A stretch of DNA of 64,000 nt, from contig JAJPKP010000026.1 of the NCBI GenBank assembly GCA_021323675.1, positions 1 to 64,000 on the forward strand. Reading direction: 5' to 3'. This stretch comes from Pseudomonadota bacterium (lineage in GTDB: Bacteria; Desulfobacterota; Binatia; Binatales; Binataceae). Below the pieces are notes generated by a model. It searched no databases, was not told the DNA's origin, and saw only the letters and a list, made by a program, of their open reading frames with translations. Positions 26,490 through 51,313 of this stretch are shown in pieces (positions within the stretch are counted from its first letter, which is position 1; every line of letters begins with the position of its first letter). Position numbers and translations under genes: made by a program.

Positions 26490-27281
26490 TCACGATGCCG
26501 CGAAGGTGGCCAACACCGCTATCTCAACAATTTCGCCGCAGGCGCCGATCAGATCGCCGGTCACGCCGCCGAGCCATCGCCTGTAAAACCATCGGGCGCC
26601 CGCAGTGGCAAGGATTGCGACGAGCGCCGATTCGATCGCTCGCGGCGACATCGTGGCGGCAACCGCAACCGCGGCGGTGATGCTTGCGACGACGATGCTC
26701 CGGGCGTCGCGCTGCAGAAGGCTCGCTCCGGCGCCGCCTTGGCCGCGCAGATATTCAAGGCCTCCCGCCACCGCTACCATCGCCCATCGCGCGAGACCCG
26801 CCGCGGTGAACAGGGCCACAAAGCGGTGGGACGCGGGAACGGCGCCCAACGCGATAATCTTGAGGCCCAGCGACAAAACGATCGCGGCCGCTCCGAAACT
26901 GCCGATTCTGCTGTCGCGCAGGATGGCAAGCGCGCGGGAGCGATCGCGACCGGCACCGAGCGCATCCGCCGTGTCTGCAAGCGCATCGAGATGTACGGCT
27001 CCGGTCACGGCCGTGAGAGACAAAATTACAATCGCCGCGCTCAAGATCGGCGGAAAAACAAGCAGCAAGATCCGATCCTCGATCGCCAGAGCCGCGCCAA
27101 GAAGGAAGCCCACCAGCGGAAACCATCGAAACGACGCCGCAACGACGGCATTGTCGGCCTGAAGCGAACCGAGCGGAATGATGGTCAGAAAGCTCGCGGC
27201 GAGGCGTAGCTGAGCGGCCACGTCCCACCTTCCGTTCTCGCGGCTGCGAGCGATGTTGGCTTGCCAGCTCTGATCGCTCAT
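26490..27281 (-). CDS. cobS: Adenosylcobinamide-GDP ribazoletransferase
   Basis: LTAVTGAVHLDALADTADALGAGRDRSRALAILRDSRIGSFG. Confidence 0.93.
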   Translation of the reverse strand: MSDQSWQANIARSRENGRWDVAAQLRLAASFLTIIPLGSLQADNAVVAASFRWFPLVGFLLGAALAIEDRILLLVFPPILSAAIVILSLTAVTGAVHLDALADTADALGAGRDRSRALAILRDSRIGSFGAAAIVLSLGLKIIALGAVPASHRFVALFTAAGLARWAMVAVAGGLEYLRGQGGAGASLLQRDARSIVVASITAAVAVAATMSPRAIESALVAILATAGARWFYRRWLGGVTGDLIGACGEIVEIAVLATFAAS

Positions 27282-28342
27282 CGCACCTTGCCTGACACGC
27301 CGGCGGACGCGAAGGTCGCCATCGAATGAAACAACTCGAGCGCCGCCTCGAGCGTATTCATCGCGAGCGCGGCGCCGGTCCCCTCGCCAAGGCGCATATC
27401 AAGGTCAAGGATGGGCCGCACTCCCATCCGCTCCAGCGCCGGGGCATGGCCGCCTTCCGCCGATCGATGGCTGAAGAACAGGTACTCGAACAGGCCCGGA
27501 GAGATACGCTCGGCGGCGGATGCGGCGGCAGTCGCGATGAACCCGTCGACGACCACCGGAACACGCAGCGCCGCGCCAGCCACGCATACCCCAGCCATCG
27601 CCGCGATTTCGAATCCACCGATCGCGGCAAGGATCGACCTGCCATCAACGAGCGCGGAGCGATGCAAATCGAGCGCGCGCTCGATGACACCGACCTTGCG
27701 GCGTACTCCGGCGTCATCAAGACCGGTTCCGCGCCCAGCCAGCTCGGCGGGCGCCAATCCGGTTGTGGCGCTCAGGATCGCGGCGGCGGAAGTGCTGTTG
27801 GCAATCCCCATCTCGCCGATTCCGATAAGGGTTGCCCCGTCGTGCGCAAGTTCCCGGGCGATCTCGATTCCCGCTTCAATCGCGCGCAAGGCCTGCTCCG
27901 AACTCATCGCGGGCCCGCGTGTGAAATTCGCGGTTGCGGAGCCGACGCGGCGATAGGTTACTGCCGCGAAAGGCGCCGCACTGGTGTCGCTTTTGACTCC
28001 CACATCGATCACGCGAAGGTCATAGCCGAAGCGGCGCGCGAGCACGCTGATAGCGGCGCCGCCCGCCGCGATATTGCGCAGCATCTCGACCGTGACCGCC
28101 TGCGGAAAGGCGCTCACGCCTTCGTCGGCAACCCCATGGTCGGCTACAAACACGGCGATCGCGCCGCGATTCATCCGAGCGTCCTTGTCGCCCCGGATTG
28201 CCGCGTAGCGTCGCACAGCTTTTTCGAGATAGCCGAGGCTACCGGGAGGCTTGGTCAGAGAATCCAGATGCGCGGCCGCCGCCCGCTCGGCTTCCGAATC
28301 GAGCGGACGGATGGCTCGCAGGGTTTCATCGAGAAGGTTCAT
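27278..28342 (-). CDS. cobT: Nicotinate-nucleotide--dimethylbenzimidazole phosphoribosyltransferase
   Basis: LTKPPGSLGYLEKAVRRYAAI, IGEMGIANSTSAAAI, HRSAEGGH. Confidence 0.95.
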   Translation of the reverse strand: MNLLDETLRAIRPLDSEAERAAAAHLDSLTKPPGSLGYLEKAVRRYAAIRGDKDARMNRGAIAVFVADHGVADEGVSAFPQAVTVEMLRNIAAGGAAISVLARRFGYDLRVIDVGVKSDTSAAPFAAVTYRRVGSATANFTRGPAMSSEQALRAIEAGIEIARELAHDGATLIGIGEMGIANSTSAAAILSATTGLAPAELAGRGTGLDDAGVRRKVGVIERALDLHRSALVDGRSILAAIGGFEIAAMAGVCVAGAALRVPVVVDGFIATAAASAAERISPGLFEYLFFSHRSAEGGHAPALERMGVRPILDLDMRLGEGTGAALAMNTLEAALELFHSMATFASAGVSGKVR

Positions 28343-28415
28343 CGCTCGAGTTCAGAGAATCATAAAGGCAATCGCGCACCAGAAGAAGATCTTTGGTGCG
28401 CAGCCCTCCAGATCG

Positions 28416-29480
28416 CTACTCCTTCCATTTCGCGACGGCTTCGATCAGGCGCTGGTTGTCGGCGCGGCTGCGGATGCCAACCCGGTAGAGGCCCGCCGAG
28501 CAACCGGGCATCGCGCGCAAGTCGCGCACCGCGATGCCGCGCCGGATCAGATTCTCGCCGAATTGTCCCGGCGAGGACTCATCCGCAATCGCGATCATCA
28601 GAAAATTCGCCGCCGACCCAAACACGCGCACGCCCGCGATTGCGCTGAGAGACCGAACCAGGTGTTCTCGCTCGCGCCCCACAAACTTGCGGGTACGCCG
28701 CAGATAATCGTCCGCCGATTCAAGGCAGGCGAGCCCGACACTCTCGGCAACGACACTCACCGACCAGGGTTCGATCGCATCGCGCATCGCCGCGGCGACT
28801 TCAGGATCCGCGACCACGCATCCCAGCCGCAGCCCGGGAATCGCGAAAGACTTGGTCAACGAGCGAAGCACGATCAGGCGCCCGTTGCGAGCGGTCATCC
28901 CGACCGCCGACTCCGGAGGATCCGCGAAATCGACGAACGCCTCATCCAGCACGAGCCAGCATCCCCGCGCGGCGCATCGCGCGGCAATCTCCTCCACCTC
29001 GCCCATCGAGAGCATCGTCCCCGTCGGGCTGTTCGGACGGCCGATGAAGATTGCTCCCGCGTGGTCCGCGAGCGCGCGATCGATCTGGTCCATATCGAGG
29101 CGATATTCGCGGTCGCGATCCAGTTGAATCGGCTCGGGCGGCGAGCCTTCGCCCGCCAGCGCATTTGCGATTTCGCTGAAGGTTGGGATGGCGACGAAGG
29201 GGCGCGCGGGCTCGAGCACGCGCGCCAGGAGATAAATGAGCTGCGTCGTTCCGTTCCCCGCCAGCACGCTCTCGGGATCGACCCCGAGCCAGCTCGCCAT
29301 CCGATGCTCCAGTGCGGCGCTCTTCGGCGGCGGATATGACGTTATTCGCGCGACCGCGGAATGGTACGCCTCGATTGCGCCAGGCGGAGGCCCGAGAGGA
29401 TTGATGCTTGCGCTGAAGTCGATCGCGCCGGGCGGCGCCGCGCCCCCGTGGACGCGGTCGATGGGCACGGGACGAGTCAT
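28416..29480 (-). CDS. cobD: Threonine-phosphate decarboxylase-like aminotransferase
   Basis: HGGAAPPGAIDFSASINPLGPP; LRSLTKSFAIPGLRLG PLP lysine motif; cobalamin context. Confidence 0.9.
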   Translation of the reverse strand: MTRPVPIDRVHGGAAPPGAIDFSASINPLGPPPGAIEAYHSAVARITSYPPPKSAALEHRMASWLGVDPESVLAGNGTTQLIYLLARVLEPARPFVAIPTFSEIANALAGEGSPPEPIQLDRDREYRLDMDQIDRALADHAGAIFIGRPNSPTGTMLSMGEVEEIAARCAARGCWLVLDEAFVDFADPPESAVGMTARNGRLIVLRSLTKSFAIPGLRLGCVVADPEVAAAMRDAIEPWSVSVVAESVGLACLESADDYLRRTRKFVGREREHLVRSLSAIAGVRVFGSAANFLMIAIADESSPGQFGENLIRRGIAVRDLRAMPGCSAGLYRVGIRSRADNQRLIEAVAKWKE

Positions 29481-30445
29481 GTAAGGATCATCCTGAAGGC
29501 GGCAAACGACGCAAACGCGATCGCCGCCGCGATTTTGAAAATCATCCGCGCACTCGCGATGTCATCGATCGTAACCGGGCATTCAGAGTCTCCAAGCGTC
29601 GCGTGTTCGATCTTCTCGCCCTCATAGATGGCCGGACCGCCGAGGCGCATCCCCAGGCCGCCGGCCATCGCCGCCTCCGGATAGCCGGCGTTCGGACTTT
29701 CATGTTTGCGCGCGTCGCGACCGCATATGGCAAGCGCTTGGCGCCCGCGCCCGAGCCACAGTTCCGATGCGGCCGCGATGCAAACCGCGGTTAGGCGCGC
29801 GGGAATCCAGTTTGCGGCGTCATCGAGCCGCGCCGCAGCCTTGCCGAAGTACGCGTAGCGCGCGTCGCGATGACCGATCATCGAGTCCAGCGTGTTGACC
29901 GCCTTGTAAGCGATAGCACCCGCCGGGCCCGCGATGAAAAGAAACAGCAGAGGCGCGACGACGCCGTCGCTGGAATTCTCCGCGACCGACTCAACCGCCG
30001 CCCGTACCATCCCCTCGCGGTCGAGACAGGAGGGATCGCGTCCAACCAGCGCGGGCATCGCGCGGCGCGCCGCGCCGTCATCGCGACGTAGCAGGGCGTC
30101 CTGAACTTCCGCCGCCGCGCGATCGAGGCTCCGAAGCGCCAGCGTTGTCCAGGCAATCGCAATCGCGGCAAGTGCGCCAACCGCCGGATGAAGCCGGTCG
30201 CATAGCGCAACTAACGCCCACGCCGCCGTCGCGGACAGCGCGACTATGGCTACGGTCAGGATAGCGCCGCGTCCAAGGTCGCGCCGCGGGTCTCCGGTGT
30301 GAAGAACGGTTTCGCCGCGGGAGATTGCCGCGCCGATTATCCGGACCGGATGAGGAAGCCAGGCGGGGTCGCCCAGAGAACAGTCAAGCAAAATCGCCGC
30401 CGCGATCAGCGCAGTCGATAGATGCAGCGCGTGGGTCATCGCCAT
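29477..30445 (-). CDS. cbiB: Adenosylcobinamide-phosphate synthase
   Basis: LLDCSLGDPAWLPHPVRIIGAAIS; VAENSSDGVVAPLLF. Confidence 0.93.
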   Translation of the reverse strand: MAMTHALHLSTALIAAAILLDCSLGDPAWLPHPVRIIGAAISRGETVLHTGDPRRDLGRGAILTVAIVALSATAAWALVALCDRLHPAVGALAAIAIAWTTLALRSLDRAAAEVQDALLRRDDGAARRAMPALVGRDPSCLDREGMVRAAVESVAENSSDGVVAPLLFLFIAGPAGAIAYKAVNTLDSMIGHRDARYAYFGKAAARLDDAANWIPARLTAVCIAAASELWLGRGRQALAICGRDARKHESPNAGYPEAAMAGGLGMRLGGPAIYEGEKIEHATLGDSECPVTIDDIASARMIFKIAAAIAFASFAAFRMILT

Positions 30446-30534
30446 GCAATCGAACTAGCGCATCGCCGGGCATTCAAGAGGCCGCTCGCCCCGCACCTTC
30501 AGGCCGTTGCTCGCGAAAGAGCATCCGCTTGGCG

Positions 30535-31209
30535 TCACTCCTGCTCCTTGCCGCGGCGAGCCAGCGCGCGGGCGCAGGCCGCCAGCGCGGCGCGTCCGAT
30601 CAGTTCTCCAGCCAGGGTGTGTTTGCCGCAGTAGCGATGCGCGCGGGGGGTGAGCGGAGCGGCGACCACGATGCAATCGGTGCCGGTGCCGGTCGCGAGT
30701 TCGCCGGAGCGAGTGCTCACGATTCCGGCGTTTTGCACGGCCAACACGCGCGCCTCGGTAGCGATCTGTACCGCCTCGACCATCGCGCTCTGTTCGAGCG
30801 GCTCGTTGATCGCGACGATCAGATTAATCGTGCCAGGACGGCGTTCGGCGAAGGTCGCGCGATCGCCCACTCGCAGCGCATTGGTGCATCCCGCCGTACA
30901 CCAGCATCCGGCCATCAGCGTGCCGCGGCGCGCTGAAGCGTAAGCGGCACGGCGAATCTTCGCGCCCGTCATCATCGCCACCGCATCGCGCGGATCGATC
31001 GCAAGATCGCGAAGGATGCGGCGCAGATATGCGGCGGGCCGATCGGTGGGCGAACGATCTCCGTCCGGCACCTGATGATTGGCGAGTACGGTCGCGCGTG
31101 CCGAACCTCCCCCCAGGGGAGCCCATCCGAGCGTCCGAAACGGCGCATCGAAGCGCACCAGCAGGGTGCGGCCTTGAATCTCCCATCGCCAAGGAGTCGA
31201 GCGGGCCAA
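30535..31209 (-). CDS. cbiZ: Adenosylcobinamide amidohydrolase
   Basis: NHQVP..MMTGAKIRRAAYASARRG..CTAGCTNALRVGD..GTINLIVAINEPL; no ATG near start, TTG at 31209 likely. Confidence 0.85.
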   Translation of the reverse strand: MARSTPWRWEIQGRTLLVRFDAPFRTLGWAPLGGGSARATVLANHQVPDGDRSPTDRPAAYLRRILRDLAIDPRDAVAMMTGAKIRRAAYASARRGTLMAGCWCTAGCTNALRVGDRATFAERRPGTINLIVAINEPLEQSAMVEAVQIATEARVLAVQNAGIVSTRSGELATGTGTDCIVVAAPLTPRAHRYCGKHTLAGELIGRAALAACARALARRGKEQE

Positions 31210-31217
31210 AGTGGGTT

Positions 31218-31988
31218 TCAGCGTTCTCCGGGATCTTCGCCGGGAAAGATCTCGCGCCAGATGGCGGGATCGTCGATTGCGGCGGCGAGGTCGGTTCCGA
31301 TGGCGTCGGCGCCCTGCCACGAATCGAAGTGCAGGACCGATCGGGGCGGCAACCTGCGCGCCCATCCTTTGGTAGCCAGAACCGGGCGATCCGGGAAATC
31401 CCGCACGTAGCCGACGCAGAGATACGCGAGCGGAATCGTGCCGCTCGGGATCGAAAAGATCTCCGCGAGCGCATCGTTGCGCAGGATGCTGACCCATCCG
31501 ACCCCCAGGCCTTCCGCGCGCGCCGCCAGCCACAGATTCTCGACCGCGAGACATGCCGAGTAAATCTCGACTTCGCGGATGCTCACCTTGCCCAGCACCG
31601 CGGGACCAAAACGGCCGGGAGTGCAGGTCACCAGCACATTGAGGGGCGAGTCGAGGATGCCTTCGAGCTTCAGCGACAGGAACTTCGATCGGCGGTCGCC
31701 GGCGAACTGGTCGGCATTCTTGATGCGCTCTTCGTCGAAGACCGCGTGCACGCGGCGGCGGCGTTCGAGGTCGCGAATAATCACGAAGTCCCACGGCTGG
31801 GTAAAGCCGACGCTGGCCGCATGATGGGCCGCGATCAGCACCCGCGCCAGCACGTCGTTGGGAACAGGGTCGGGCAGAAATTCGCGGATGTCGCGGCGGC
31901 GAAAGATGGCTTCGTAGAGGCCGCGCTTGAGGCCGGCCGCAAACGACAGCACATGCGCGGGTGACTCAGGCGAATTGTTCCCCTGCAA
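31218..31988 (-). CDS. bluB: 5,6-dimethylbenzimidazole synthase
   Basis: YEAIFRRRDIREFLPDPVP..AAHHAASVGFTQPWDFVII..GLGVGWVSI; TTG 31988 preferred because the longer ORF start runs through a hairpin. Confidence 0.9.
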   Translation of the reverse strand: MQGNNSPESPAHVLSFAAGLKRGLYEAIFRRRDIREFLPDPVPNDVLARVLIAAHHAASVGFTQPWDFVIIRDLERRRRVHAVFDEERIKNADQFAGDRRSKFLSLKLEGILDSPLNVLVTCTPGRFGPAVLGKVSIREVEIYSACLAVENLWLAARAEGLGVGWVSILRNDALAEIFSIPSGTIPLAYLCVGYVRDFPDRPVLATKGWARRLPPRSVLHFDSWQGADAIGTDLAAAIDDPAIWREIFPGEDPGER

Positions 31989-32017
31989 GATGATGCTCCA
32001 AAAGGATGAGGTGTAAA

Positions 32018-32047
32018 CGCGGGAGATGCGGCGTAGCATCTCCCGCG
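32018..32047 (-). terminator. Hairpin downstream of tpx
   Basis: CGCGGGAGATGC-GGCGTA-GCATCTCCCGCG, perfect 12-bp stem. Confidence 0.65.
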
Positions 32048-32063: not shown

Positions 32064-32588
32064 TCAGGCGCCGGCCGCCTTGCGCGCCGCTTCGAGCGCC
32101 GCTTCGTAGTTGGGATGCTCGGCGACTTCCTTCACGTATTCCGCGTAGGTGACCTTGTCGTTCTTGTCGACCACGAACACGGTGCGCGCGAGCAGATGCA
32201 GCTCCTTGATCAGCACGCCGTATTTCTGGCCAAACTCGGCGGCGCGATAGTCGCTGAGCGGCGTGACCTTATCGACTCCCGCCGCGCCGCACCATCGCGC
32301 CTGCGCGAACGGCAAGTCCATCGAGATGCTGAGAATCTGCACGTCGCCGGGAAGTTTCGCGGCTTCCTGGTTGAAGCGGCGCGTCTCCGCGTCGCACACC
32401 GGCGTGTCGAGCGAGGGAACGGTGGTGATGATTTTGACCTTGCCTTTGAATTGTTCCAGCGTAGCCGGCTGAAGGCCTTTGCCGACCAGCGTAAAATCGG
32501 GAGCCTTTTGTCCGGGCTTGATTTCGGGGCCGACCAGGGTCATCGGGTTGCCCCTCATCGTAACGGCGCCTTTGCGTTCTTCCGCCAT
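32064..32588 (-). CDS. tpx: Thiol peroxidase
   Basis: GQKAPDFTLV..TVPSLDTPVCDAETRRFN. Confidence 0.95.
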   Translation of the reverse strand: MAEERKGAVTMRGNPMTLVGPEIKPGQKAPDFTLVGKGLQPATLEQFKGKVKIITTVPSLDTPVCDAETRRFNQEAAKLPGDVQILSISMDLPFAQARWCGAAGVDKVTPLSDYRAAEFGQKYGVLIKELHLLARTVFVVDKNDKVTYAEYVKEVAEHPNYEAALEAARKAAGA

Positions 32589-32724: not shown

Positions 32725-33117
32725 TCAGTGGGCGCGCATATGATGAACTATCGGGCCGATGACCGCGCCAAGCACCAGGATGCCGTTGATTGTGAAAGTG
32801 ATGATCGCGCCGGGCGCGCGCTTCTGCGGCGCGTTGATATAGCCCGCCGCGTATATGATGCGGCCGGCCAGGAACAGCAATCCGAGCGCGATCGCTATCG
32901 AGACGCTCACATACCTCGCGAACAGGAACAACGCCGGGATGAAGACGACCAGCGCCTCCATCGAGTTCTGATGCACGCGAAAGTAGCGCTCGAAGGCGGG
33001 GTCTCCGGTCGTCGCCGGCGCTTCGACGTGGTACCTGGCGCGCGCGCGGCCGACCATCGCGCCCAGGATCATGTATTCGAACAATGCGAGACCGGCGATC
33101 GCGGCCACACCATTCAT
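32725..33117 (-). CDS. MAPEG family membrane protein
   Basis: ARARYHVEAPATTGDPAFERYFRVHQNSMEALVVFIPALFLFARYV. Confidence 0.9.
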   Translation of the reverse strand: MNGVAAIAGLALFEYMILGAMVGRARARYHVEAPATTGDPAFERYFRVHQNSMEALVVFIPALFLFARYVSVSIAIALGLLFLAGRIIYAAGYINAPQKRAPGAIITFTINGILVLGAVIGPIVHHMRAH

Positions 33118-33151: not shown

Positions 33152-34006
33152 TTATTTCGCGTAGCGTGCGCGGCGTTCGGCTTCCTCCCGGTCCGCCTCT
33201 TCCTTCGACGGCCGCTCGGGCATCCATCCCTTCGTGTAGTCGCGGGTTTCCCAGGTGCGATCGTTGGGATCCCAGACATAGGGCAGCTCGACGATCGTGC
33301 CGGGCCGGGCGATGGTCTCGAATGCGCGCATCGCATCCTTGACGATTTGCCTTTGCAAATCCGGCTGGTTCGGTTTGCCGGTCTGATGGCCGAGCGGGAA
33401 ATTCAGGAACACGGCCCGCGGCGGCTTGACTGCCTGTGTAATGTCCAGCGCCGAAGTCATGCACAACGTCGGAATACCGGCTTCTTCGACTACTCGCGCG
33501 ATCAGTCCAACGGACTGATGGCATACGGGTCAGGCAGGCACCAGGTAAAAGGCGTCAACGTGCGCGCGCTTGAGGTCATCGGCGATTTGCGGCGCCAGCT
33601 CATCGCGGACCTTGCGCGCCGAGTAGATGCCTCCCATGAAACTGAAGCAGGGGTCGGACAGCGCGCCGATCACTTTTTCGCGTTCCAGTTCCTTGAGGCG
33701 TTCCCAGGGAAACACACAATTGGGATCCTGTTGCGCGTCGCGGGTCGGATAGCCGAAATGCCAGATGTTGAGATCGGCGCGCGTTGCGTCTTTGGGGATG
33801 CGCCGGTAGGAAGCGTCTTCGCGATGGAACCGCGGCTGATCGCGATACATGATGCCGCCGGAGCTGATCAGCGCAACCTTGCATTCGGCGATTGGCTTGC
33901 GAAGGGGAGTCCAGGGCGCCGAGTCGTTGGTGACCCATCGATACGGGTTGTTGTAATCGGCGTAGAGCTCGCGGGTACGCGGAATATAAGCTACCGGCAT
34001 CGCCAT
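33152..34006 (-). CDS. GrdB/PrdB-like selenoprotein with in-frame UGA read as selenocysteine
   Basis: ORF-track ORFs 33530..34105 and 33152..33466 are in the same frame; the intervening codons give VPA-(TGA)-PVCHQSVGLIARVVEEAGIPTLC. AGGAGGT precedes ATG 34006; SECIS-like hairpin follows the UGA. Confidence 0.85.
33501..33532 (-). promoter_or_regulatory. Putative bacterial SECIS element (UGA plus hairpin)
   Basis: UGA-CCCGUAUGCC-AUCAGUCC-GUU-GGACUGAU: perfect 8-bp stem, apical loop beginning with G 19 nt after the UGA. Confidence 0.75.
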
Positions 34007-34020
34007 AGACCTCCTCTCGC

Positions 34021-34791
34021 TCAAACTCCCTCGGGCGGAAACATCATCTTGCCGCCGCGAAATTCGCGCGCGACGAAATCGATAAATCCGCGGCGAACCG
34101 GCCATTCCAGGCGGCTGTCGCGCCAGTGAACTTTGCCGTCGGGTCCTTCCAGCTCGCTGGTAATATCATGAACTTTGGAGAGTGCCGCGACCAGGCGTTT
34201 GCGGTCCTCGCGGACTGCCGCGATCTTGTTCATCCGCGCCGCCCACGCCTTGAGCTGCGGCATCAGGGCAATATCAATGCCCATCGCCCCCGCCGCGGGC
34301 ACGTAACAAATCGCGGCAAGGTCGGCGATGCTGACCGAGCCGCAGAAGAAATCGCGGCCGTCCAGTTGACGATCCAGTTTTTCGAGCAGCAGGGTGAATT
34401 CCGCGCGCGCGGCCGCGGTCATCGCCCCCGCTTCGGGAACATCCTTGCGCGCCGCGGCGATCCAGTAGCCGTAACTGACGGCATCGAACGCGCGATCGCA
34501 CAGGTCTTCGATTTGCCGCATCCTGGCCCGTTCGTATGGATCGGCGGGACGCAGGGGAGGATCGGGAAACGCATCCTCGAGGTATTCGCAGATGATCGTC
34601 GAGTCGGCGATGGTGCGGCCGTCGTCCAGGACCAGCGCCGGCACCTCGGCGCGGGGACTCGCGCTGAGCAGGTCATGCTTGCGGTCGAGCGAATAGCATC
34701 GCTCGATGGGATCATACGGGATGCCTTTGAAGTCGAGCGCCATTCGGGCCTTTCGCGCGTAGGGACTGGTGGCGAATGTGAACAGTTTCAT
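34021..34791 (-). CDS. Glutathione S-transferase family protein
   Basis: MKLFTFATSPYARKARMALDFKGIPYD..EVPALVLDDGRTIADSTIICEYLED. Confidence 0.93.
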   Translation of the reverse strand: MKLFTFATSPYARKARMALDFKGIPYDPIERCYSLDRKHDLLSASPRAEVPALVLDDGRTIADSTIICEYLEDAFPDPPLRPADPYERARMRQIEDLCDRAFDAVSYGYWIAAARKDVPEAGAMTAAARAEFTLLLEKLDRQLDGRDFFCGSVSIADLAAICYVPAAGAMGIDIALMPQLKAWAARMNKIAAVREDRKRLVAALSKVHDITSELEGPDGKVHWRDSRLEWPVRRGFIDFVAREFRGGKMMFPPEGV

Positions 34792-34879: not shown

Positions 34880-35905
34880 CTATCTGAACGCAGGCAGAAC
34901 TTCGCGGCCGAAGCGTTCCAGCGAGCGGCGTGCCTTCGAGGGATCGAGTCCGGGCAGTTGCGTGACCGTGATCAGATCGGTGATCGGCGCCGACTCGATT
35001 ACTTCCGCGATCCGCGCGCGGACTTTGTCGGGCGGGCCGAGGATGCTGGTGTGCTTCAGGCGGTCCGGGTCGGGACGGATCAGCACCTTGCTCATGTCAG
35101 TAGTGCCGGCGGCGGCGCTGAGCCATCTGCCGTAGTGCTCGGCCTGATACATGAGCGCATCGCCCACCTCGCGCCATGCCTCCTCTTCGCTCGAAGCGAT
35201 ATAGACGACGCGGCTGTTGACCACGCTGAACGAAGCAGGATCGCGTCCTGCCGCCTTGAGCGCATCCGTGTATATCCCGACTTCGCGGCGTCCCGCCACG
35301 CACGCGAACGAGAGCCCCATCCTGGCCGCGCGCTGGATTGCCTTGGGAGCGCCCGCGCCCCACAACAATTCCGGATAGGGGCGGCTTGCGGGGGTCGGCA
35401 GCACGCGCACATCTTTGAATCGGAAGTATTTTCCTTCAAAGCTGAAGCGCTCGCCGGTCCATGCGCGCTTGAGAATCTCGATCGTCTCGAGCGTGCGGCC
35501 GAGCCGCTCGGAACGCGCAACGCCGAAGCCGTCGAATTCTTCCTGCCGATAACCCTGGCCAAGTCCGAGCCGCAGCCGCCCGTTCGAGATCACATCGACG
35601 ACAGCGGCATCCTCGGCGAGCTTGAGGGGATGCTGAAACGGGGCGAGGAGGACAAAAGTGCCGATCGCGACCCGGCTGGTGCGCGCCGCAATCGCCGCGG
35701 CCGCCGGCAGCATCGCGGGCAGGTAGCCGTCGTCGGTGAAATTATGCTCAGTAAGCCAGATCGAGTCGAATCCGAGCGACTCCGCCAGTTCCGCCTGCCC
35801 GAGCAGATCGCGATAAAGATCCGGAAAGCTGCGGCCGGAACCGGGCGGATTTCGGAAGTCGAGTTGATAGCCGAATCTCATCCTGGGCATCGTTGCCTCA
35901 CTCAA
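34880..35905 (-). CDS. LLM class flavin-dependent oxidoreductase
   Basis: Luciferase-like fold: AELAESLGFDSIWLTEHNF..RLRLGLGQGYRQEEFDGFG. Confidence 0.92.
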   Translation of the reverse strand: MSEATMPRMRFGYQLDFRNPPGSGRSFPDLYRDLLGQAELAESLGFDSIWLTEHNFTDDGYLPAMLPAAAAIAARTSRVAIGTFVLLAPFQHPLKLAEDAAVVDVISNGRLRLGLGQGYRQEEFDGFGVARSERLGRTLETIEILKRAWTGERFSFEGKYFRFKDVRVLPTPASRPYPELLWGAGAPKAIQRAARMGLSFACVAGRREVGIYTDALKAAGRDPASFSVVNSRVVYIASSEEEAWREVGDALMYQAEHYGRWLSAAAGTTDMSKVLIRPDPDRLKHTSILGPPDKVRARIAEVIESAPITDLITVTQLPGLDPSKARRSLERFGREVLPAFR

Positions 35906-35932: not shown

Positions 35933-36712
35933 TCAGCCCATCGAGAGGCCGCCGTCCACGATCAGTTCCGTGCCGGTTATGTAGGATGCGTCGTCGGAGA
36001 GCAGGAAGACGATCGCCTTGGCGATTTCCCACGGCGTTCCCTGCCGCCGCATCGGGATGCGCGGGGCGACGGCGGCCTCGCGATCGCCGATCTCGCGCCG
36101 CACCATCGTCGAGTTGATCAGTCCGGGCAGGATGGTGTTGACGCGAATATTATCGCGGGCGTGCGATGCGGCGGCGGAACGCGACAGCCCGAGCAGCGCC
36201 GCCTTGGTCGCTTCGTAGGGAATCAGGCGATTGCTCCGGAGCGCCGCCATCGAGGAGACGTTTACGATCGCGCCGCCCCCGGCTTTCGCGATTTCCGCAA
36301 CCGCATAGCGCATCGTGAGGAAGTGGCTGCGCAGGTTCACCGCCACCATCCGGTCGAACTGCTCGGTGGTGGTCTTGAGAAGGCTTCCGCCGATGCCTAT
36401 TCCAACGTTGTTGACCAGCAGATGAAGCTTGCCGAATTCGCGCACCGCCGCTTCGACCGCGCCGCGGCAGTCTTCTTCCTTGCTTGCGTCGCAGGCGACA
36501 GCTTTGGCGCGGCCGCCTTCAGCGCGGATGGCGGCGGCGGTTTCTTCAGCCAGCGGGAGTCTCAGATCCGCGACCATCACGGCGGCGCCTTCGCGCGCGC
36601 ACATGATCGCGGTCGCGCGGCCGTTGCCGATCGCGAGCGCTTCGCCCTTGTTGGGAGGTCCGTCGGCGCCTCCGCCGACAATCAGCGCAACCTTGCCGTC
36701 AAGCCGGCCCAT
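35933..36712 (-). CDS. SDR family oxidoreductase
   Basis: NNVGIGIGG, VNVSSMAALRS, YEATKAALLGLSR, YITGTELIVDGGLSMG. Confidence 0.93.
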   Translation of the reverse strand: MGRLDGKVALIVGGGADGPPNKGEALAIGNGRATAIMCAREGAAVMVADLRLPLAEETAAAIRAEGGRAKAVACDASKEEDCRGAVEAAVREFGKLHLLVNNVGIGIGGSLLKTTTEQFDRMVAVNLRSHFLTMRYAVAEIAKAGGGAIVNVSSMAALRSNRLIPYEATKAALLGLSRSAAASHARDNIRVNTILPGLINSTMVRREIGDREAAVAPRIPMRRQGTPWEIAKAIVFLLSDDASYITGTELIVDGGLSMG

Positions 36713-51217: not shown

Positions 51218-51313
51218 GGAGGAGGAAGGGGCCCGGTGGCCCCACCGGTCTTCAAAACCGGCCTGGCAGCTATTGCGGCTGCCGGAGGGTTCGACTCCCT
51301 CCCCCCTCCGCCA
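51218..51313 (+). tRNA. selC: tRNA-Sec (anticodon UCA)
   Basis: 8-bp acceptor GGAGGAGG/CCCCCTCC (one A-C mismatch), 6-bp D stem GGGGCC-CGGT-GGCCCC, anticodon loop CTTCAAA, long variable arm GGCAGC/GCTGCC, T arm GAGGG-TTCGACT-CCCTC, discriminator G and encoded CCA. Confidence 0.95.

Follow-up and report, generated by a model that had tools for sequence, protein, structure and literature searches.

Results

The locus

The 64,000-nucleotide stretch of DNA analysed here, which we call the window, carries on its minus strand a reading frame at 33152-34006(-) that ends at a TAA (33152-33154) and is interrupted only by the TGA at 33530-33532, codon 159 when counted from the ATG at 34006. A sequence-only reading of this DNA had taken two ORF entries in one frame, with this TGA as the sole stop, for a single gene that a gene caller would split; both fragments (33530-34105 and 33152-33466) are present, and one frame does appear as two separate ORFs. 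The minus-strand gene order is short-chain dehydrogenase, luciferase-like oxidoreductase, GST, PrdB-like gene, MAPEG, redoxin and a nitroreductase-family gene. The features considered below are:

35933..36712 (-): short-chain dehydrogenase, upstream (PF13561, 205.3 bits)
34880..35905 (-): luciferase-like (LLM) flavin oxidoreductase, upstream (PF00296, 215.9 bits)
34021..34791 (-): glutathione S-transferase (GST), directly upstream, ending in TGA (Pfam GST_N_3, 70.4 bits)
34009..34015 (-): Shine-Dalgarno-like AGGAGGT, 8 nt before ATG 34000
33152..34000 (-): predicted PrdB/GrdB-superfamily selenoprotein CDS, starting probably at ATG 34000 (282 aa) or else at ATG 34006 (284 aa)
33530..33532 (-): in-frame TGA of a UPVC motif, predicted to be read as selenocysteine (Sec); TGA in 121/121 motif-readable copies and in annotated PrdBs, true Cys in two homologues from aerobes
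33501..33519 (-): bacterial SECIS-type hairpin with an 8-bp stem and GUU loop, within the codons for QSVGL (folding, synonymous shuffles, covariation)
32725..33117 (-): MAPEG-family membrane protein, downstream (PF01124, 73.1 bits)
32064..32588 (-): thiol-peroxidase/redoxin family gene (PF08534, 101.4 bits)
51218..51309 (+): tRNA-Sec (selC) (matches Rfam RF01852 with 71.9 bits, threshold 47 bits, and is also called by ARAGORN)

The frame had previously been read as 284 residues from ATG 34006, behind a strong AGGAGGT site. The read-through frame and the site both stand, but the site (34015-34009) is only 2 nt from ATG 34006 compared to 8 nt from ATG 34000. Moreover, the ten relatives that we inspected (Binataceae and near relatives) have an ATG at the position matching 34000, which yields M(P/A)(V/I).YIPRTR, with MPVEYIPRTR.. 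as the N-terminus of the Binataceae-type relatives. Owing to the spacing and to the start position in these relatives, translation probably begins at ATG 34000, which gives a product of 282 aa with the selenocysteine as Sec157. When the 64-kb window was screened by codon bias for other TGA read-throughs, only apparent ordinary gene ends emerged besides the PrdB-like gene.

Conservation of the in-frame TGA

A search of 148 genomes sampled across the phylum found a PrdB-like relative in 40, with one in-frame TGA in nearly every full-length match, and the TGA occupies a single alignment column in all 31 of the phylum homologues that were aligned. Named genomes were searched with the pattern [CD][HNC]Q[ST]VGL[IVA][AQS]R, which leaves the Sec position outside, and at least 576 PrdB-like relatives were confirmed in one scan of named genomes. 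Among the loci from the phylum-wide and named-genome searches, every copy with a readable motif (121/121) has TGA at the Sec codon; these copies come from Binatota, Rokubacteria, Chloroflexota, Acidobacteriota, Gammaproteobacteria and others, and the 121 exclude one copy that has the TGA but misses the motif pattern and one fragment. The closest named relatives among the matches listed are Candidatus Binataceae and Binatus soli MAGs, at 75-80% identity.

The RefSeq-annotated PrdB genes of Peptoclostridium, Enterococcus and Ligilactobacillus also have an in-frame TGA at the aligned column, and homologues from Haematobacter and Roseomonas have a true Cys codon there; all copies read apart from these two are thus predicted to carry Sec. 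It had been suggested that one check whether the UGA column aligns with Cys or Sec in homologues, and it does so throughout, as a Sec-type TGA or as Cys. As the TGA is kept in every homologue with a readable motif, chance can be excluded.

A SECIS-type hairpin downstream of the UGA

The hairpin (33519-33501) reads AUCAGUCC-GUU-GGACUGAU, a perfect 8-bp stem with the loop GUU, and its stem starts about 10-11 nt downstream of the UGA. The window sequence gives a z-score of -2.39 against dinucleotide shuffles. Since the hairpin also encodes the conserved QSVGL, we compared the 42 nt that follow the UGA in each of 119 homologues with synonymous-codon shuffles, which keep the protein fixed. The real sequences fold more stably than their shuffles (mean z -1.71, with z below -1 in 73%), compared to a mean z of -0.03 for other windows of the same genes (308 windows). 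The case for stability rests on the homologue set, the window copy being weaker by itself (z -1.47; 7.5% of its synonymous shuffles are as stable).

Three stem pairs show compensatory changes: S1-G3 (T-A in 91, A-T in 10 and G-C in 7), Q3-L1 (G-C in 102, C-G in 7 and A-T in 6) and H3-I1 (T-A in 75, C-G in 28 and G-C in 6), where the figures are counts over related sequences rather than independent events and the variation in part follows amino-acid changes (e.g. Gln to Arg, Ser to Thr or Ala). The SECIS-like hairpin that had been noticed after the UGA is thus real, being stable across the homologue set and showing covariation.

Selenocysteine machinery

The selC gene reported earlier for the window was recovered both by the Rfam model and by ARAGORN. 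The proposed genome search for selA, selB and selD found all three by profile matches in the same genome (575.1, 367.9 and 382.9 bits, respectively), with selB and selD adjacent (G000:C33:27952-30864; L001, L006). Since its reading frame contains one TGA, selD probably encodes a selenoprotein too. As nearly every genome of the phylum has selA (136 of the 148 sampled), co-occurrence of the PrdB-like gene with selA is uninformative. Two genomes that have a PrdB-like gene (G005 and G043) gave no selA match, possibly through incompleteness.

Family membership

The sequence-only reading had called the protein GrdB/PrdB-like and had proposed an HMM comparison of the read-through product with GRDB. 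The product matches Pfam GRDB (PF07355) with 48.7 bits against a gathering threshold of 22 bits, over residues 18-155, the match ending just before the Sec residue. Against TIGR04483 (PrdB) it scores 175.8 bits over profile positions 18-234 of 238, spanning the Sec but below the equivalog cut-off of 300, and against TIGR01918 it scores 64.2 bits, just under the cut-off of 65.45, again with a match that runs across the Sec. Relative to GrdB, it covers the C-terminal half (PF07355 202-344; TIGR01918 219-429).

In a maximum-likelihood tree, drawn with a midpoint root, all PrdB-like proteins fall in one supported clade (99/94), with three annotated PrdBs outside it and GrdB more distant. The window protein sits among the Binataceae copies, adjoining Rokubacteria and Dehalococcoidia. 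It resembles PrdB in sequence family, size, Sec position and an in-frame UGA with UxxC, and is 32-39% identical to the three annotated PrdBs. It differs in its separate clade, its sub-cut-off score, the lack of PrdA in the genome, an N-terminal extension (YIPRTR..YRW) that the PrdBs do not have, and a UPxC/D-HQ motif in place of the UGTCHR of PrdB. GrdB, itself a UxxC selenoprotein (PMC13188914), aligns through its C-terminal half, but the window protein has half its length and falls under the TIGR01918 cut-off, and the genome has neither GrdA nor GrdE. The Haematobacter and Roseomonas proteins, from Alphaproteobacteria, which RefSeq names 'glycine/sarcosine/betaine reductase selenoprotein B family protein', share a similar N-terminus (MRRTR..Y..PY.W) and a CPxCHQT motif, though with a true Cys for Sec, 34 and 31% identity and different neighbours.

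Some further matches were seen during these searches. PrdB-like matches in Acetoanaerobium and Paraclostridium (NZ_CP154629.1 and CP124691.1) have no listed gene under the match, in a gene table that is incomplete. A plasmid of Photobacterium sp. DA100 gave a weak GrdB-like match by tblastn, which is unannotated and has a stop codon within its frame.

Partner subunits

Profile searches detected neither GrdA (PF04723) nor the GrdE/PrdA family (PF09338) nor PrdA (TIGR04480) in the genome, and the same models found nothing in 14 of 15 genomes that have PrdB-like genes. The fifteenth (G026) matches PF04723, PF09338 and TIGR04480, and therefore serves as a positive control that the partner searches work. 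On two contigs of that genome (C35 and C170; L083-L086), GrdA genes (with TGA) and GrdE-family genes, apparently of true glycine-reductase-type systems, are carried in addition to PrdB-like genes.

The Sec motif and a structure model

UPVCHQSVGL is by far the commonest form of the motif, with UPLDHQ in one subclade. To the latter belongs a second PrdB-like copy in the same genome (G000:C63:79031-79867(-); L039, L048), which is 41% identical and has no second Cys; a wider match of this copy has one TAG inside. The earlier placement of the UGA in a UxxC redox motif is therefore right for the UPVC of this protein but does not extend to a strictly conserved UxxC, the subclade having UxxD. As that subclade does without the second, resolving cysteine, this residue is not essential to the whole group and a simple UxxC redox cycle does not hold throughout.

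An AlphaFold2 model (with Cys for Sec) has a pLDDT of 94.4 and a pTM of 0.93, and places the Sec (159 in the 284-aa numbering) between a predicted strand (152-156) and helix (160-175). A fold search of the model against PDB and BFVD returned nothing at E <= 0.001, with top TM-scores near 0.2, and we therefore assign no fold. A sequence search for a solved structure gave no relevant chain, the single weak profile hit being a designed repeat protein.

Gene neighbourhood

Near PrdB-like genes on the same strand, a GST is found upstream at 7 Binataceae-type loci, a MAPEG gene at 8 loci (7 Binataceae-type, one far off) and a redoxin at 9 loci (nearly all Binataceae-type); two of the loci (L040 and L094) appear to be the same contig, and should count as one. 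Across phyla, no neighbourhood recurs beyond close relatives among 104 adjacent genes tallied, the commonest families having 4-6 members. As no neighbour recurs strongly across phyla, the link to glutathione would be a lineage-specific clue, the GST/MAPEG linkage being seen in Binataceae only.

Discussion

The conservation of the TGA, the Sec machinery, the stability of the hairpin and its compensatory changes together lead us to regard the product of this locus as a selenoprotein, in which SelB and tRNA-Sec, directed by the downstream hairpin, almost certainly insert Sec at the UGA (33530-33532). Were the TGA a real stop, the locus would have to be a pseudogene, a pair of genes or the product of a sequencing error. 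A gene caller would indeed split the frame, and TGA is the normal stop of the neighbouring GST and redoxin genes. However, the TGA is present in every motif-readable homologue with conserved sequence on both flanks, and the hairpin is preserved by compensatory changes, which makes a real stop highly improbable. An altered genetic code, by which the organism reads UGA as another residue, would also explain a translated in-frame TGA, but we consider it a still slighter prospect, barely worth entertaining: the adjacent GST and redoxin genes end in TGA, the genome has a complete Sec system, and the homologues have Cys or Sec at the column.

We very much doubt that the protein serves a genuine D-proline reductase as its PrdB subunit. 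Its best NCBIfam match is TIGR04483 over the full length, and it has appreciable identity with the annotated PrdBs, yet the score is far from the curated cut-off, the genome has no PrdA or PF09338 gene, the annotated PrdBs lie outside the supported clade, and the N-terminal extension is missing from them. Given that neither a pyruvoyl (GrdE/PrdA) nor a GrdA partner is detectable in the genome, the window protein is not, going by gene content, a subunit of glycine or D-proline reductase as known; the name GrdB/PrdB-like thus holds for the superfamily but not for a role in these reductases, for want of partners and given its place outside PrdB in the tree. A Sec protein just as described might equally have a function unrelated to glutathione, its GST and MAPEG neighbours being incidental. 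We see the scales as evenly poised on this point: outside Binataceae none of the adjacent genes recurs consistently, whereas the order and strand of GST, PrdB-like gene, MAPEG and redoxin are kept in several Binataceae genomes.

As a whole, the best explanation, and one in which we have considerable confidence, is a single PrdB/GrdB-superfamily selenoprotein with a Sec-decoded UGA, no role in the known reductases and a selenolate mechanism. The Sec is predicted to sit where a beta strand gives way to a helix, an arrangement seen in redox active sites. Acting as a selenolate, it would react with a small organic substrate that is oxidised or electrophilic, and resolution of the Se intermediate would fall to the UxxC cysteine in proteins that have it and to an external thiol in the others; we give this mechanism about an even chance of being right. 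Because GST, MAPEG and peroxidase genes are adjacent, glutathione-linked detoxification or redox metabolism is the likeliest context in Binataceae, though we propose it tentatively. With similar reserve, the stand-alone PrdB-like proteins could form a self-contained class of selenoenzymes, without a pyruvoyl partner and coupled to glutathione in Binataceae, that carries out an undescribed reductive reaction.

The window protein adds a member to a family already described, PrdB-type selenoproteins having been recognised in environmental sequence as early as 2005. Reports of PrdB-type UxxC selenoproteins came from the Sargasso Sea in that year (42 Sec genes; PMC1088965) and from GOS in 2008 (235 Sec and 110 Cys; PMC2398784), and both GrdB and D-proline reductase appear among the UxxC selenoprotein families of a 2026 review (PMC13188914). 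The marine-metagenome 'Proline reductase PrdB' selenoproteins, likewise PrdB-type UxxC proteins abundant in environmental bacteria, very likely belong to the same broad group, a comparison made by description rather than alignment. Our literature search found no paper on selenoproteins of Binatota or Rokubacteria and no biochemistry for the marine-metagenome PrdB selenoproteins. GrdB/GrdE relatives in Synergistota have been proposed to cleave C-F bonds (PMC10838667), and by analogy the chemistry of the superfamily may extend beyond amino acids.

The PrdB-like gene is a securely supported selenoprotein gene that a standard gene caller would break into two pieces. PrdB and GrdB, the named members of the family, work in anaerobic Stickland fermentation; unlike these, the proteins described here occur without partner subunits in most genomes examined, including this one. 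They also occur in lineages that are described as methylotrophic aerobes and would not be expected to carry out Stickland-type fermentation; Binatota, for instance, have been described with aerobic methylotrophic capacity (PMC8262859). If the proposed class is real, a PrdB-like reductive reaction would take place outside anaerobic amino-acid fermentation in several phyla, some of their lineages being described as aerobic. For Binataceae, the conserved GST/MAPEG cluster offers a concrete first handle on function. Separately, cobalamin genes of the CobD/CbiB type and CbiZ (by Pfam) lie downstream of the cluster on the same strand (window 26490-32039(-)), and the nitroreductase-family gene beside them could be BluB.
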